Source: a virus
Virus record (IMG/VR): IMGVR_UViG_3300007541_006778
Span: 1 to 22,157 of that record
DNA length: 22,157 nt
Strand: one strand, 5' to 3'
The notes beneath the pieces were generated by a model. That model searched no databases and had not been told where the DNA came from. It saw only the letters and a program-made list of their open reading frames with translations. How positions within the stretch are numbered: the first letter of the stretch is position 1; each line of letters opens with the position of its first letter. The translations under genes and the position numbers were made by a program. Positions 6,005 through 17,229 of this stretch are shown piece by piece.

Positions 6005-7189
6005 ATGAACGACACACTCTTCACGAATCTCCAATCTTTTCGAGCCTCTCTGAACACTGTCTTTCTAGAGCGAGAAGAGATTATCGATGGTCTACTGGCC
6101 TCGGTAATTACAAAGCAGAACGCTTTCCTGTTCGGCGTACCGGGAACCGGTAAGTCAGAACTGGTGAAGGCAGTTTCAAATGGTTTTAATGGTTCTAAGT
6201 TCTTTGGTTACCTACTATCGCCCACAACAGATCCAAGCGAATTGTTCGGTCCTGTTGCTGTGAGTCGCCTACTGAAGGATGAATACCATCGTGATGTAGA
6301 GGGCTACTTGCCCTCATGTAACATCGCGTTTCTTGACGAGTTGTTCCGAGGTTCTTCGGCTGTTCTCAACTCCCTGCTCACCATTTTGAATGAGAGGGTC
6401 TTTAACAACGGAAAACTGGTTGTAGAAACACCTATCCAATCGATAGTGGCAGCAACCAACAGTTTTCCGCAGGAAGAAGCACTGCAAGCTTTCTGCGATC
6501 GTTTCCTATTTAGACCGACAGTAGATCTACTGAAGAATCCGGTTTCTAAGAGGAAGCTCGATCAGTGGACGCTAAACATTCAGAAACGACCTTCTGTGGA
6601 ATCGTCTCTAACCTACGAATGTTTGGTTCAACTACAGAAAGCTGTTGAAGAAGTAGAGCCCAGCGAAGACTTCCTAGATTCTTTCAGTCAAGTACTCGAT
6701 CTCCTATCTGCTCGGGGAATCACAATCAGTGATCGACGGAGGGTTCAGGTTCTCAAATTTATGCGTGGCTGGGCACTCGTTAAAGGAGATGACCGCATTT
6801 ATCCAGAGCATCTATACGGATCCTTTACACATATGGTGTACAGAACGCCGGATGATCTCGTGGTTATTGACGAGGTTTTGAAGCAGGCTGTGCCCACAGT
6901 GGATAAGCTCACGTCCGACATTAAGAGGGCAATGAGTGGTCTAATGACTAAGTACCATTCAATGCACAGCAGAGAAGCTAAGTCTATTGAAGACATTTCT
7001 AGGTTCGTAGCCGAGCTCAAGAAGCTGCATACAGACCTTAGTAAGCTCTCTAACGCTCTAACCAAGATTATGGAGGACGGGCAATACAGAATGACGATCA
7101 CACAACGGAGCGATGCGACAAAGCTGAGTCAGCAGATCGATTCGAACCTACAAACAATCGCTAAATCTATTAACGAGATTGCATCATGA
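6005..7189 (+). CDS. MoxR/RavA-type AAA+ ATPase (394 aa)
   Basis: An ATP-driven remodelling protein of the MoxR class. Visible motifs: Walker A GVPGTGKS (44-51, K50), Walker B IAFLDE (107-112) followed by LNSLLTILNER, sensor 1 AATN (149-152), the arginine-finger region CDRF (R166), and a sensor-2-like SDRRR (242-246). The first ~270 residues cover the ATPase and lid; the C-terminal ~120 are helical (LKKLHTDLSKLSNALTKI), possibly for partner contact. RavA and its relatives form hexamers that work with VWA proteins to load metals or remodel complexes, and the next gene is a VWA protein overlapping by four bases (ATGA). The substrate in a phage-infected cell is unknown. Confidence 0.88.
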   Translation: MNDTLFTNLQSFRASLNTVFLEREEIIDGLLASVITKQNAFLFGVPGTGKSELVKAVSNGFNGSKFFGYLLSPTTDPSELFGPVAVSRLLKDEYHRDVEGYLPSCNIAFLDELFRGSSAVLNSLLTILNERVFNNGKLVVETPIQSIVAATNSFPQEEALQAFCDRFLFRPTVDLLKNPVSKRKLDQWTLNIQKRPSVESSLTYECLVQLQKAVEEVEPSEDFLDSFSQVLDLLSARGITISDRRRVQVLKFMRGWALVKGDDRIYPEHLYGSFTHMVYRTPDDLVVIDEVLKQAVPTVDKLTSDIKRAMSGLMTKYHSMHSREAKSIEDISRFVAELKKLHTDLSKLSNALTKIMEDGQYRMTITQRSDATKLSQQIDSNLQTIAKSINEIAS

Positions 7190-8739
7190 CTGAGCAGTTT
7201 GTAACTCACAGAGAGTTTATCCGCTTAACCGAAAGCGAGCCTCTGGTCCTGGCGGTATCGGCGCTAGCAGACTTCCTATGGGAAGACTTCGTGCGAGACA
7301 GCCGCCCATGCGTTAAGTATCTTGCAGATCACTACAACATAAAGCAGCTGTCTAGATTCGGGAAAGAACTGTTTGACTACCTATACAACGGTAGTGCAGT
7401 AACACCCTTAGTAAGCATAGATGAAGTAGAAGAGTACTTTCGTGCTCAACAAAATGGACTGAACCCAGAGATGCCCAAAGGTTACAAACCAGAATCAGCT
7501 TTCTGGTTGGGTCTGTTCGCAGACATTTGTGACGCTCCTGTTTGGCCACAGGTGGTAGCCAACTGTGTGGGCAATCAATTCAACAGTGGTAATAATGCTG
7601 TAAACATTCTGAACGAGCTGAGTGAAGTAATACAGAAAGAAATCGACTCAGACAGTCTATCAATAGAAAGTCTGACAGAAGGGGCAGATAAGCTACAGCA
7701 AATTAGAGAAGACTACCTGAAGGCCAAGAAAGCAGGTGACAACGAGAAAGCAGCCAAGCTTCGGCAGGAAGGTAAGCAGCTAGCAAAACAAATAGAACAA
7801 TCCCTTCAAAAAAGTCGTCAGCAACTGCAACCCTCCACCGCTGCAGCGGTAGAGAAAGCAAAGCAAAAGTCAGATGATATGGAAAAGGCAATGATGTCTC
7901 TCGCTGGAGACGAGAAAGGAAAAGGTCAAAAAGGTATGGATCTCGATGAGAAACGAAAGCTCGCAGCAAAGCTCAGCAAGAACAGCAAGCTCCGTCAGCT
8001 AGCGCGACGGTTGGGAGCCCTTCGACGAGCTTGGAATGACAGGAAGCGAGCCAGAAGAAGCGCTGCGAACTACAGCGATATCGTCGGGGCACGGTTTTCG
8101 GACGCGATCACACAAGCGTTCCCGGCAGAGATAGCAATTGCAGGAACAGAAGAGGGCAAAGCACTCTTCCTTCTGAAGTACTCTCAGAAAACTCTGTTGA
8201 CGAAAGACTATGAGGCAAAAATAAAGGAGCTGGACAGGGGTCCTCTGGTTATGTACATCGATATCTCGGGCTCGATGGCAGGTGACAGCGAGATCTGGTC
8301 AAAAGCAATCGCCTTTGTTGTCACAGAGGAGTGCTTAAAAAGTAACCGCAAGGTTCAGATAAACCTTTTCGATACTGAAGTGCAGGACAGTATCGTCTTA
8401 ACACCAGGCTCGGCAAACAACGAAAGTTTGATCGACTTCGTTATGTCTTGGATAACAAAGGGCGGAACTTCTTTCGTTTCTGTGATTAACCACGCGCTCA
8501 CCAAGGCTGATATTGACGACAAAGCAGACATCCTCCTGATCACCGATGGTTGCGCTCAGGTTCCTGAGGCCTTTATTAAAAGACTAAATAACTTTAAACA
8601 AGAGCAAGGTATTACATGGAACTCTTTCTGCATAGGAAAGGCATCTGAAGTACTGAGTTCATTTAGTGACATAGTTCAGATCGTAGACACAGAGAATGAC
8701 CCAGAGTGCTCTGATCTATTCCAAACTGTACTAAGTTAA
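7186..8739 (+). CDS. VWA (MIDAS) protein, partner of the MoxR ATPase (517 aa)
   Basis: Starts within the MoxR stop codon (ATGA), so the two are co-translated. The N-terminal ~150 residues are a helical domain. Residues about 160-290 are charged and coiled-coil-like, rich in K, E, Q, R and A (KLRQEGKQLAKQIEQSLQK), ending in a very basic patch (RRAWNDRKRARRS, 280-292). The C-terminal VWA domain has an intact metal-ion-dependent adhesion site: D-I-S-G-S (359-363), the threonine in GGTSF (T428) and ITDG (452-455). This layout matches CobT/ViaA-like partners of MoxR ATPases. The protein should be cytoplasmic, as there is no signal peptide or anchor. Confidence 0.87.
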   Translation: MTEQFVTHREFIRLTESEPLVLAVSALADFLWEDFVRDSRPCVKYLADHYNIKQLSRFGKELFDYLYNGSAVTPLVSIDEVEEYFRAQQNGLNPEMPKGYKPESAFWLGLFADICDAPVWPQVVANCVGNQFNSGNNAVNILNELSEVIQKEIDSDSLSIESLTEGADKLQQIREDYLKAKKAGDNEKAAKLRQEGKQLAKQIEQSLQKSRQQLQPSTAAAVEKAKQKSDDMEKAMMSLAGDEKGKGQKGMDLDEKRKLAAKLSKNSKLRQLARRLGALRRAWNDRKRARRSAANYSDIVGARFSDAITQAFPAEIAIAGTEEGKALFLLKYSQKTLLTKDYEAKIKELDRGPLVMYIDISGSMAGDSEIWSKAIAFVVTEECLKSNRKVQINLFDTEVQDSIVLTPGSANNESLIDFVMSWITKGGTSFVSVINHALTKADIDDKADILLITDGCAQVPEAFIKRLNNFKQEQGITWNSFCIGKASEVLSSFSDIVQIVDTENDPECSDLFQTVLS

Positions 8740-13194: not shown

Positions 13195-14355
13195 ATGACG
13201 GTTTCCACTGGCGGTACGACAACCGTAACTGACTACGTTAAGCCGAATAGCAAGTACGCTCCGATCCTCAAAGCGGGTAAGAAATTCGGTTTAGATCTAG
13301 CAGGTTTATTTGAAGACGAAGAATTTACTGGCGGTCTAGAAGGCTTAGGTCTTGTTCCCACAGTGGGGCAAAAAGCCCTGTTAAAAGGGCGTGGAGCTGC
13401 GTTGTCTTTTAGAGCACCAAAAGAGCCGACACGTATTTCGGAGTTTAAACTCGAGCCGGCTTCCACGGGTAGTTCGACGGTAGCCGCTACTCCTGCGCCG
13501 GCACCAGCACCGGCAGCGGCTCAAGCTTCAGCACCCCCGCCGCTTCTGCAAGCGATGGAGGAAGAATTAAAAACCTATTACGGAAACGTCGGCACTCTCA
13601 CCCCCTCTGATATCGGCAACTTTGGTATCGGTAAGAAAGATTACGAAGCAGCGATTGCGTCAGGTTACGATCCCAAGTCGATTAAGGATTATTTAGAAGC
13701 CAATATCGGAAGGGTCCAGGTTGGTAAGGGTCTTGCTGAACAACTCGGAATTAAGTGGCAGCCGAGTCCACAGGGTTCAGGGGCTTTCAGCATTAATACT
13801 ACGGACTACGATCCGAGTGCCTTTGGTGGTAAAAACTTCGGTCCTGAGGATATCAACTATCTCGCAACACAGGGGATCAGCCCTGGCGATATGGCCAAGA
13901 TTGCACAAGCGGCAGCTTCACGGGGCGCAGGCATCTCGAGTGCCGCAGCTCAGTATCTCGGTATTCCACAGGTGGCAGCAGGGGCCGGTGTGCCCGCAGC
14001 AACAGGAGGAGGCGCTTCTCAAGATGTGATTAACCAGAACGTCAAGGAAGCCTTCAGCAGCAATCAACAAGTTTCGGCAGCCACGCCGACAGCGAGCCAA
14101 GCCCGCTCGGCTGGTTACTCGGCTGGTGACGTGGGACGAAGCTACAACGCAGCCTCTGTTGGAGGGGCGAACTTCGGTCCGAAGGACGTTGCCGCTCTAT
14201 CTAACGCTGGTTATAGCGCAAGCCAAATCTCTAAAATCGCATCCTCCAGCGGGGCGAGAGTTACACCCGGAGCTAAGCAAGCTATGTCACAGGTCAAAAG
14301 TGGCGGTAGCAGCGGTCGTTTCTCTGCGCTTGCAGCAAGGGCTAGCCGTCGCTAG
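13195..14355 (+). CDS. Ala/Gly/Pro-rich protein with repeated NFGxxD modules (386 aa)
   Basis: After a Thr/Gly-rich start and a short globular-looking region (20-90) comes an Ala-Pro linker (97-117). Three modules of about 41-45 residues follow: 142-186 (NFGIGKKDYEAAIASGYDP...), 214-257 (NFGPEDINYLATQGISPGD...) and 326-366 (NFGPKDVAALSNAGYSASQ...), with a partial copy near 299-320. The shared pattern is N-F-G-x-x-D-[VIY]-x-x-L/A-x-x-x-G-[YI]-[SD]-x-x-x-[IM]. Each module looks like a two-helix unit. The C-terminus is basic (ARASRR). A virion or DNA-associated structural role is plausible for a phage; no enzyme motif is present. A terminator follows. Several other-frame ORFs inside are shadows caused by the biased composition. 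Confidence 0.75.
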   Translation: MTVSTGGTTTVTDYVKPNSKYAPILKAGKKFGLDLAGLFEDEEFTGGLEGLGLVPTVGQKALLKGRGAALSFRAPKEPTRISEFKLEPASTGSSTVAATPAPAPAPAAAQASAPPPLLQAMEEELKTYYGNVGTLTPSDIGNFGIGKKDYEAAIASGYDPKSIKDYLEANIGRVQVGKGLAEQLGIKWQPSPQGSGAFSINTTDYDPSAFGGKNFGPEDINYLATQGISPGDMAKIAQAAASRGAGISSAAAQYLGIPQVAAGAGVPAATGGGASQDVINQNVKEAFSSNQQVSAATPTASQARSAGYSAGDVGRSYNAASVGGANFGPKDVAALSNAGYSASQISKIASSSGARVTPGAKQAMSQVKSGGSSGRFSALAARASRR

Positions 14356-15590: not shown

Positions 15591-16412
15591 ATGGTGTTCA
15601 TCGCAGGTAAGTTTTCGGCTGATGAGATTCTCTGTCAGATTCCGCCGCACACACTTCGCATCGATCTTCAGGCGCGTCGCTGGAAATCCGATAGTGATCC
15701 AGATTCCGCGATCACAGATGCCAACGATAATGGTATCCCGATCGAGTTTGTTTTACTCGGATTCACCCCTTACTTCGGGAATCTCGGTATGCGAACGCAT
15801 GAAGAGTTTATTCGTATTGCTTACATTGGGGTTAGCCCTAACCATCGTTTACTACCTCCCCGGTGTGTATCTACGAGTATCATCTCTGGTAAATCGAGTC
15901 AAAAGAACTTTATCTCCTACTTCCAAAACCTCTACAACAACCGCATCAACGTGGCGGAAATAGTCACGTCAACTAAGTTCGTCACCAAGAGCTTTAACGA
16001 GCGTGATCCTCATACCGGCGCTGATGGTGCCAAGATTAACTTTAATGCAGTTGAGTTTCGGGATCGCCCCGCAAAGGGTGATGAAGAAACTAAACTCATT
16101 GAGGATATTTTGAAATGGCTTGAAAACGATCGAGGAGAGCTGGTATCAGCTGCATTACGTTCTAATATCTCCGGCAGCAATCTGGTTGAGCTTCCTTTGG
16201 GAGTCGACCACTCGGAGATTAAAGAAGCTTTCATCGAAGCTAACCCTAAGCGTCTCGAAGCTTCTGGACTCGGCTCTCTCCCTCCATCCGCTGCGACCGC
16301 TGGGAAACCTGCTGACGAAAACGAACCACCTAACCCTAAGAAAGCTTCAGGAGCTAAGGAGTTGTCTGAAGAACAAAAAGAAGCTTTAAAAGCAGCAGGA
16401 CTAGACTTCTGA
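15591..16412 (+). CDS. Hypothetical protein encoded next to SSB, SSB-like tail (273 aa)
   Basis: ATG 15 bases after the SSB stop, in the same unit and before a shared terminator, which suggests a joint role in DNA replication or recombination. The N-terminal ~180 residues are a mixed fold with beta-prone segments (TLRIDLQARRWKSD; IPIEFVLLGFTPYFG; FIRIAYIGVSPNHR) and S-x-K-x-F motifs (VTSTKFVTKSF), perhaps another OB-like domain. Residues about 225-258 are a Pro/Ala/Ser linker. The end is acidic-helical: ELSEEQKEALKAAGLDF, close in style to the SSB tail. No family is securely recognised; single-strand-binding or annealing accessory function is an inference from context. Confidence 0.72.
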   Translation: MVFIAGKFSADEILCQIPPHTLRIDLQARRWKSDSDPDSAITDANDNGIPIEFVLLGFTPYFGNLGMRTHEEFIRIAYIGVSPNHRLLPPRCVSTSIISGKSSQKNFISYFQNLYNNRINVAEIVTSTKFVTKSFNERDPHTGADGAKINFNAVEFRDRPAKGDEETKLIEDILKWLENDRGELVSAALRSNISGSNLVELPLGVDHSEIKEAFIEANPKRLEASGLGSLPPSAATAGKPADENEPPNPKKASGAKELSEEQKEALKAAGLDF

Positions 16413-16440
16413 GCTAGCATTAAAGAGTGAAGGTCGAGTA

Positions 16441-16468
16441 GAGGGTGTACACACACCCTCTTTTTTTT
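16441..16468 (+). terminator. Strong intrinsic terminator between convergent genes
   Basis: GAGGGTGT (16441-16448), loop ACAC, ACACCCTC (16453-16460), then eight T (16461-16468). It ends the SSB unit. The stop codon of the minus-strand nblA-like gene is at 16470-16472, so the terminator lies exactly between the two convergent genes. On the minus strand no T-run follows the hairpin. Confidence 0.95.
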
Positions 16469-16469
16469 G

Positions 16470-16706
16470 TCATCGCTTTAATAGGTCATCTATAGCAGGC
16501 AACGGCATTTGATTCACTAAACACCACTGAGTTAATTTTGAAAACAATCTGCCGCGAACGAGGTAGTTGGCATGAGTCAGGTCTAGGATCTCAAGCAACT
16601 CCTTTTTATCGAGCTTGGCTGCTTTCTTCATGAACTGCAGGTGAAGGAACTCCTGCTCCAATCCCATAAACTCCTTTAGACGTTTTAGACTACTCTCATT
16701 ATCCAT
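16470..16706 (-). CDS. nblA: NblA-like phycobilisome degradation adaptor (78 aa)
   Basis: NblA proteins bind phycobilisome subunits and direct them to Clp proteolysis; some freshwater cyanophages carry the gene. The core from residue 16 (L-E-Q-E-F...F, 16-25; L32; E36; L41; V50-R51; L58) lines up without gaps with cyanobacterial NblA as I remember it: L-E-Q-x-F-x4-F, a central L at the same spacing, V-R, then a closing L. Two helices are predicted with a short turn at about 31-34, as in NblA. It is longer than the usual ~60 residues, with 15 extra residues at the N-terminus and ~17 at the C-terminus. ATG 16706 shares two bases with the divergent ATG at 16705. Identification is by eye, without a database search. 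Confidence 0.65.
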   Translation of the reverse strand: MDNESSLKRLKEFMGLEQEFLHLQFMKKAAKLDKKELLEILDLTHANYLVRGRLFSKLTQWCLVNQMPLPAIDDLLKR

Positions 16707-17229
16707 GAAGTTCTACCAAGTTCCTAGATTCATTTTTAATCCTATCGCATCCGAAGGCATTTGCGAAGGGAGTTGCTTACTTCCTACAGATTGGGAGGGT
16801 AGTTTAGAGAAGGAAATAAGAGTATACGGGAAGGATGACATAACCTCAAATAAGATAGAAGCCAATATTACAGACCCTGATTGGTGGTACGCAAATAAAG
16901 GAAAAGTGGACTGGGTAATCGCTATTACCCAGGGTTCGGAATACACTGAATGGATACTGGATTACGGATTAGATACCGCAAATAAGGGGCTCTGTATCCT
17001 GGACCGAATAACCTTCCTTGAGCCCACACGGAAACGGGAGGGCTTCCTAGATAATAGCTGTTTAACAAACCTAAAAATTTTGTCTCCGCGACCAGCTTTT
17101 CGTGCGGATGGTAATCAATCAAAGGACTCTGTGACTTCTGCATGGTTTGTATTCCGAAAAGCAGGAGCCGCTCGGGTTAATACAAAAGTCGATTTCGAAG
17201 TAGGGTGGGACCGCCCTAAAAGAACTTGA
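16705..17229 (+). CDS. Degenerate DNA adenine-methyltransferase-like protein (174 aa)
   Basis: The C-terminal two thirds follow the pattern of small phage DNA methyltransferases: a D-P-x-x-W, VDWVI, then ITFLEPTRKREGFL, LKILSPRPAF, and SVTSAWFVFRKAG at the end. In active members VDWVI leads into the catalytic N-P-P-[FY]; here it reads VDWVIAITQGSEY, so the catalytic motif is gone. The SAM-binding stretch expected near the N-terminus (G-x-G type) appears as NPIASEGICEG, only partly conserved. The protein may be an inactive fold reused for DNA binding or host-methylase interference, or an unrelated protein with similar strands. The start ATG overlaps the divergent nblA-like start; two bases separate its end from the next gene. 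Confidence 0.55.
   Translation: MKFYQVPRFIFNPIASEGICEGSCLLPTDWEGSLEKEIRVYGKDDITSNKIEANITDPDWWYANKGKVDWVIAITQGSEYTEWILDYGLDTANKGLCILDRITFLEPTRKREGFLDNSCLTNLKILSPRPAFRADGNQSKDSVTSAWFVFRKAGAARVNTKVDFEVGWDRPKRT

Follow-up and report, generated by a model that had tools for sequence, protein, structure and literature searches.

A diverged NblA-type gene in the replication module of phages related to cyanophage S-EIV1

Cyanobacteria use NblA to deliver their light-harvesting antennae to a protease, and phage-borne nblA genes have reportedly been known since Ma-LMM01 (2008). An earlier note on a virus record of 22,157 bases, probably a fragment and hereafter called the window, pointed to a 78-residue minus-strand ORF resembling NblA. 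This locus raises the questions of whether so short an ORF is a genuine gene, whether it belongs to the NblA family despite its unusual ends, and what its product might do in the host.

The ORF is present exactly at 16706..16470 (Table 1). An in-frame TAG is found three codons upstream of its ATG, and M1 is therefore the earliest possible start. Its clear neighbours, all on the plus strand, form a replication module that encompasses genes for a dCTP deaminase, a MoxR/vWA pair, a family A DNA polymerase, an SSB-like protein, two proteins of unknown function (273 and 174 residues), an exonuclease and a primase. The polymerase, SSB-like, exonuclease and primase genes surround nblA-a, in agreement with the replication setting described in the earlier note. 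Terminator-like hairpins similar to that of the plus-strand operon are present in 18 of 45 distinct relatives. The pair made up of a MoxR-type AAA ATPase gene followed by a vWA protein gene (6005-8739, plus strand) is kept in the long relatives.

Table 1. Coordinates of nblA-a, its parts, its surroundings and related loci (window positions unless a locus is named)
Feature	Position	Strand	Description	Evidence
nblA-like gene (NblA-a)	16470..16706	-	78 aa, ATG start, divergent NblA family member	ORF; Pfam (window member subthreshold, relatives over cut-off); purifying selection
NblA-homologous helical hairpin	16521..16661	-	residues 16-62, LEQxF-x4-F and signature ANYL[IV]RG	Pfam (16-58), AlphaFold2, hhalign (13-62)
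Extra N-terminal helix	16668..16700	-	residues 3-13, family-conserved, absent from aligned cyanobacterial NblA	family alignment, AlphaFold2
C-terminal extension	16473..16520	-	residues 63-78, conserved LPxxxxLL in place of the canonical HQWxL end	
CATG	16704..16707		overlapping start codons of nblA-a (-) and the next gene (+)	
Intrinsic terminator of plus-strand operon	16440..16461	+	9-bp stem and T-run, just beyond the nblA-a 3' end	
Left neighbour	15591..16412	+	273 aa, without Pfam match, syntenic anchor	
Right neighbour	16705..17229	+	174 aa, without Pfam match, begins in the shared CATG	
Empty-site loci	L059, L063, L069-L071, L074, L246-L257, L299			
NblA-b in G015	L101:1630-1869	-	GLTLEDDFTLTR...FVCRERAYKSVM	

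Because the score of the single sequence is insufficient by itself (see below), we collected syntenic relatives using the left neighbour as an anchor. This protein is encoded by 355 viral contigs, the best 80 of which were retained, and a minus-strand ORF occupies the equivalent place in 74 of those 80. The family alignment comprises 42 distinct NblA-a proteins that share 31-59% identity with the window protein, with M1, E17, L32, Y48, L49 and R51 being invariant. The median dN/dS ratio is 0.24 for the 26 pairs with usable synonymous divergence, showing that nblA-a is under purifying selection. The CATG overlap of start codons is found without exception in the first set (75 complete copies) and in 73 of 74 copies of a second, which shares part of its members with the first; as many contigs are near-copies of one another, these counts are not independent, and the first set corresponds to 46 distinct nucleotide sequences. 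The ORF is a real, conserved protein-coding gene, its conservation and the selection acting on it ruling out a non-coding reading. A later start at M14, which is preceded by AAAGGAG, was also considered and rejected, since M1 and the region of the N-terminal helix are conserved in all relatives; the N-terminal extension does not result from a wrong start codon.

The Pfam NblA profile (PF04485) matches residues 16-58 of the window protein without gaps (profile positions 4-46), which bears out the gapless alignment proposed earlier, with a score of 15.3 bits (E=0.029) for a cut-off of 25 bits. NblA is the sole Pfam family given for this protein at E values up to 10; nothing was found for it in PHROGs or NCBIfam, and a tblastn search against named phages gave no match. 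Its relatives match NblA far more strongly. Among the 42 distinct proteins, 38 match the Pfam profile, with a best E value of 1.6e-10, and no other Pfam family is matched by more than 4 of them. In a scan of whole records, 9 of 16 exceed the NblA cut-off, the best score (35.8 bits) being at the same locus. The NblA identity put forward in the earlier note is thus supported at the level of the family, which exceeds the cut-off, while the window protein scored on its own remains below it. The window protein is 59% identical to L020 and 36% identical to a strong Pfam match in relative G015. A tblastn search with another relative (L079) retrieved the nblA genes of Ma-LMM01 and MaMV phages as its best named-phage matches, albeit weak ones (E=0.2-1).

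Comparisons independent of the Pfam profile point in the same direction. When the family profile was run against all PDB sequences, the first four matches were the four solved NblA structures, with E=1.6e-4 for 1ojh and E=0.24-0.57 for the other three. Genome-contig searches for host homologues with two proteins yielded nothing, and host NblA sequences were therefore taken from plasmid records, giving an alignment of seven cyanobacterial plasmid proteins and the Ma-LMM01 phage NblA. With hhalign, the family aligns to these over 50 gapless columns with 96.5% probability (E=1e-9). An NblA HMM built from the same eight, mainly cyanobacterial plasmid, proteins was run on every ORF of the window and of seven phage genomes, and its four highest-scoring matches were NblA-a proteins (24.8-37.8 bits). 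The G015 relative reached 37.8 bits, and the highest score among 39,760 shuffled decoys was 11.3 bits; the window protein is absent from the matches of this HMM at E values up to 10. As judged from these profile comparisons, homology of the gene family to NblA is well supported. The window protein is one of its more diverged members, whose assignment to NblA is transitive, through its relatives.

An AlphaFold2 single-chain model computed with the family alignment has a pLDDT of 87, reaching about 90-95 in the greater part of the core. It contains helices at residues 3-13, 16-29 and 34-64 and a short one at 72-76, with a loop at 30-33. According to this monomer model, the hairpin formed by helices 16-29 and 34-64 corresponds to NblA, consistent with the two-helix hairpin fold expected of an NblA, with helix 3-13 and the tail as conserved additions. 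The terminal extensions that the earlier note had singled out as unusual are indeed both conserved; the N-terminal helix is lacking in the aligned cyanobacterial NblA proteins, and the C-terminal extension takes the place of their HQWxL end. Foldseek and VIA-align searches with the monomer model retrieved no NblA structure, these methods being weak for short all-helical monomers.

In published work, ClpC binding is attributed to a motif close to the N-terminal end of NblA, and phycobiliprotein binding to one close to the C-terminal end (PMC4103541). The LEQxF region is strongly conserved across the 42 members (L16 in 90%, E17 in 100%, Q18 in 88%, F20 in 90% and F25 in 98%), and the window protein has all five residues. 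NblA-a shares with cyanobacterial NblA (PF04485; 1ojh, 2q8v, 2qdo and 3cs5) the helix 1 that bears this motif, the loop, a helix 2 with an Arg residue, and, in most relatives, a Lys residue. In contrast, the cyanobacterial proteins have neither the extra N-terminal helix nor the tail of NblA-a, they harbour a Tyr and the C-terminal HQWxL, and they lack the ANYL[IV]RG signature specific to helix 2 of the family. Of Y48, L49 and R51, only the Arg occurs in the compared cyanobacterial proteins, in four of eight. The canonical Tyr is replaced throughout the family (0%), the Lys is found in 62% of members and the C-terminal Trp is gone; most members have a C-terminal LPxFGDLL. Relative to the canonical sequence, the window protein has Leu for R23, Lys for D27 and Gln for K60, and no Trp near its C-terminal end. 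In light of these altered C-terminal residues, we lowered the claim of a classical NblA and filed the window gene as a putative diverged member. The alignment indicates that the docking motif is kept and the cargo end altered. A clear division into a kept N-terminal and a lost C-terminal half was nevertheless rejected, as simple column counts give no clear asymmetry (7/25 versus 6/25).

Which phages carry this gene, and which host do they infect? Six long relatives of 66-86 kb have proteins of 371 and 507 residues that are 69% and 54% identical, respectively, to those of the Synechococcus phage S-EIV1, and further virion and replication genes are common to them at lower identity. The nearest counterpart of the window primase is the S-EIV1 enzyme (31%), and that of the window polymerase is found in Pseudanabaena phages (27%). 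In G015, the homologue of the window exonuclease shares 39% identity with the S-EIV1 exonuclease. Since virion genes are common to the lineage and S-EIV1, a cyanobacterial host is very probable, in line with the cyanophage inference of the earlier note. Searches for psbA and hli as host markers found neither in ten relatives, and hli in S-EIV1 only, where an hli-like match is located at 13753-13911 (KJ410740.1). Shared gene content suggests a large, mostly uncultured lineage of S-EIV1-related cyanophages with nblA-a at a fixed locus. S-EIV1 belongs to the same broad lineage, with homologous virion, primase and exonuclease genes, but it does not have nblA-a. It harbours a single NblA-like ORF, which is of a different type and scores below the cut-off: AHV82245.1 (L095; KJ410740.1, 73902-74222; 17.4 bits), annotated as hypothetical and adjoining a lysozyme gene. 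The S-EIV1 ORF for the 371-residue protein, which is 69% identical to its G015 counterpart (L095; KJ410740.1, about 60895-62010, plus strand), has been annotated as two genes, a short one on the plus strand and another on the opposite strand, and it probably represents a misannotated virion protein.

A second NblA-like gene, nblA-b, was identified in this lineage. It is a small ORF located 27-31 kb downstream of nblA-a on the same strand in all six long genomes. NblA-b is encoded by 28 viral contigs, and orthologues are present in G001, G002, G006, G009, G010, G016-G020 and G025. Its resemblance to NblA is weaker: 14 of 17 members match the Pfam profile at E values up to 1 (best E=4.7e-4), 1ojh is the sole match in the PDB profile search (E=0.1), hhalign against cyanobacterial NblA gives 31%, and with the plasmid-based HMM NblA-b scores under the best decoy. 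Structure prediction yields a hairpin of modest confidence (pLDDT 69). The NblA-a and NblA-b profiles detect each other weakly. On the basis of these similarities we describe NblA-b as NblA-like and do not call it NblA.

In 13 contigs, the same two flanking genes are separated by 83-84 bases without nblA-a, and the terminator-like hairpin is kept. In the tree, the empty-site contigs from the first set group together in a single clade with full support. With midpoint rooting, on which the direction of change rests because S-EIV1 is too distant an outgroup to root the tree, this clade is nested among carriers, which argues for loss of nblA-a. Its nearest sampled carriers (L019, L023 and L025) have the LEQ motif worn to LELDL, a sequence feature that hints at decay of the gene before its loss. 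An eroded motif, GLELDL, is found in carriers L019, L021, L023 and L025, and the long records with the LELDL form (G003 and G004) gave no Pfam NblA match.

What might NblA-a do during infection? We consider it probable, at roughly two chances in three, that its product is a viral NblA-type adaptor that would lead the host ClpCP protease to phycobilisomes. The protein would dimerize like known NblA proteins, dock on the host ClpC chaperone through its conserved LEQxF end and hold phycobilisome rod proteins with its helix 2 and tail. Degradation of the antenna by ClpCP would free amino acids and lower excitation pressure. The location of nblA-a on the opposite strand, its start embedded in the next gene and the plus-strand terminator past its 3' end suggest that it may be expressed apart from the replication operon. 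Heterologous expression of tested phage NblA proteins leads to phycobilin loss according to PMC9602691 (citing Nadel 2019, Gao 2012 and Ou 2015), and such proteins are also described as promoting degradation and phycobilin loss in PMC5780444. By analogy with these proteins, antenna dismantling by NblA-a in the course of infection, as proposed in the earlier note, is a reasonable inference.

The main rival to this reading, to which we attach a clearly smaller likelihood, is that the protein is a ClpC adaptor of the NblA fold that acts on another substrate. The docking end would be kept, but helix 2 and the C-tail would recognize some other host protein, such as one with a regulatory or defence role. 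The invariant helix 2 residues of the family indicate that the substrate may differ, the tail has a conserved sequence of its own, and the canonical Tyr, the Trp and, in the window member, the Lys are lost; moreover, each of the six long genomes encodes NblA-b, a protein that would be superfluous if it shared a single target with NblA-a. However, relatives at the same locus score up to 35.8 bits against NblA, more than 60% of family members retain Lys60 and Arg23, and tested phage NblA proteins act on phycobilisomes as reported in PMC9602691. A more specific proposal, which is speculative and rather unlikely, is that the lineage has two separately evolving NblA-fold adaptors, the one in the window having been adjusted, at helix 2 and in the tail, to a substrate that differs from the classical phycobilisome rods or is additional to them. 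If this were true, a viral adaptor would reprogram host ClpC.

The joint presence of nblA-a and nblA-b on the same strand in the six long genomes, the matches of both to Pfam NblA over the hairpin and the weak mutual detection of their profiles could also fit an obligate heterodimer like NblA1/NblA2 of Synechocystis, a precedent known to us from the title of Baier 2014, as cited in PMC7966870. We regard this as improbable, as G020 (L299) has an empty nblA-a site and keeps nblA-b at 33345-33560, which shows that the two genes are separable, and as NblA-b is weakly NblA-like. Many other cyanophages maintain host photosynthesis, and a dominant-negative NblA that blocks host NblA, thereby preserving the antenna during infection, would agree with a hairpin that is kept while some canonical residues are lost. 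Tested phage NblA proteins, however, promote degradation according to PMC9602691 and PMC5780444, and we consider this reading even less probable. The poorest candidate is a chance resemblance of an unrelated short helical-hairpin protein: the subthreshold score of the single sequence and the Foldseek search without structural match would be compatible with it, but the family-level Pfam, PDB-sequence, hhalign and decoy tests point only to NblA.

The NblA proteins of the freshwater cyanophages Ma-LMM01, MaMV-DC and PaV-LD are likewise phage-borne. The NblA-a family profile matches Ma-LMM01 nblA over residues 14-60 (E=0.006). Nevertheless, the NblA proteins of LMM01 and PaV-LD are much closer to the canonical family than NblA-a, with 45-52 bits against the Pfam profile, and LMM01 nblA adjoins nrdA on the same strand, whereas nblA-a runs against the replication module in which it is embedded and its start codon overlaps that of its neighbour. 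Phage NblA proteins were previously known from a few freshwater isolates, and distant homologues have been reported from marine cyanophages of the T7-like and T4-like types (Nadel 2019, as cited in PMC9602691). A photosynthesis-gene survey gives hli and ptoX, not nblA, for the S-EIV1 genus-level group G238 (PMC5332604, Table 2), and we found no report of nblA in the S-EIV1-related group in the openly readable literature. What appears to be new here is the lineage, the family-specific helix 2 (ANYLIRG) with the conserved C-tail, the weaker second NblA-like gene and the clean empty-site clade. A recognisable but structurally extended NblA occupies one set position throughout a lineage that is related to S-EIV1 and whose anchor gene occurs in hundreds of contigs. 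Related phages with and without nblA-a at the same site provide a natural comparison, making it testable what advantage a phage NblA brings to the virus and whether its absence tracks a change of host antenna.

The NblA-like proteins of marine cyanopodoviruses and cyanomyoviruses, including ORF237 of S-SCSM1, are distant homologues identified by sensitive prediction, according to the account of Nadel 2019 in PMC9602691. S-SCSM1, S-TIM5, Syn5 and S-RIP1 gave no Pfam NblA match in the same kind of scan that the NblA-a family passes, and searches of these marine phages with the NblA-a family yielded no clear match, the only one being a frameshifted stretch of S-RIP1 (E=0.0017). This unannotated stretch (NC_020867.1, 34809-34919; L169:1010-1120) has two NblA-like halves in different frames, LTIEQDLKMRQ... 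and ...ITIFLALQRQNF, and may be an nblA-like gene of a cyanopodovirus that is interrupted by a frameshift or a sequencing error.
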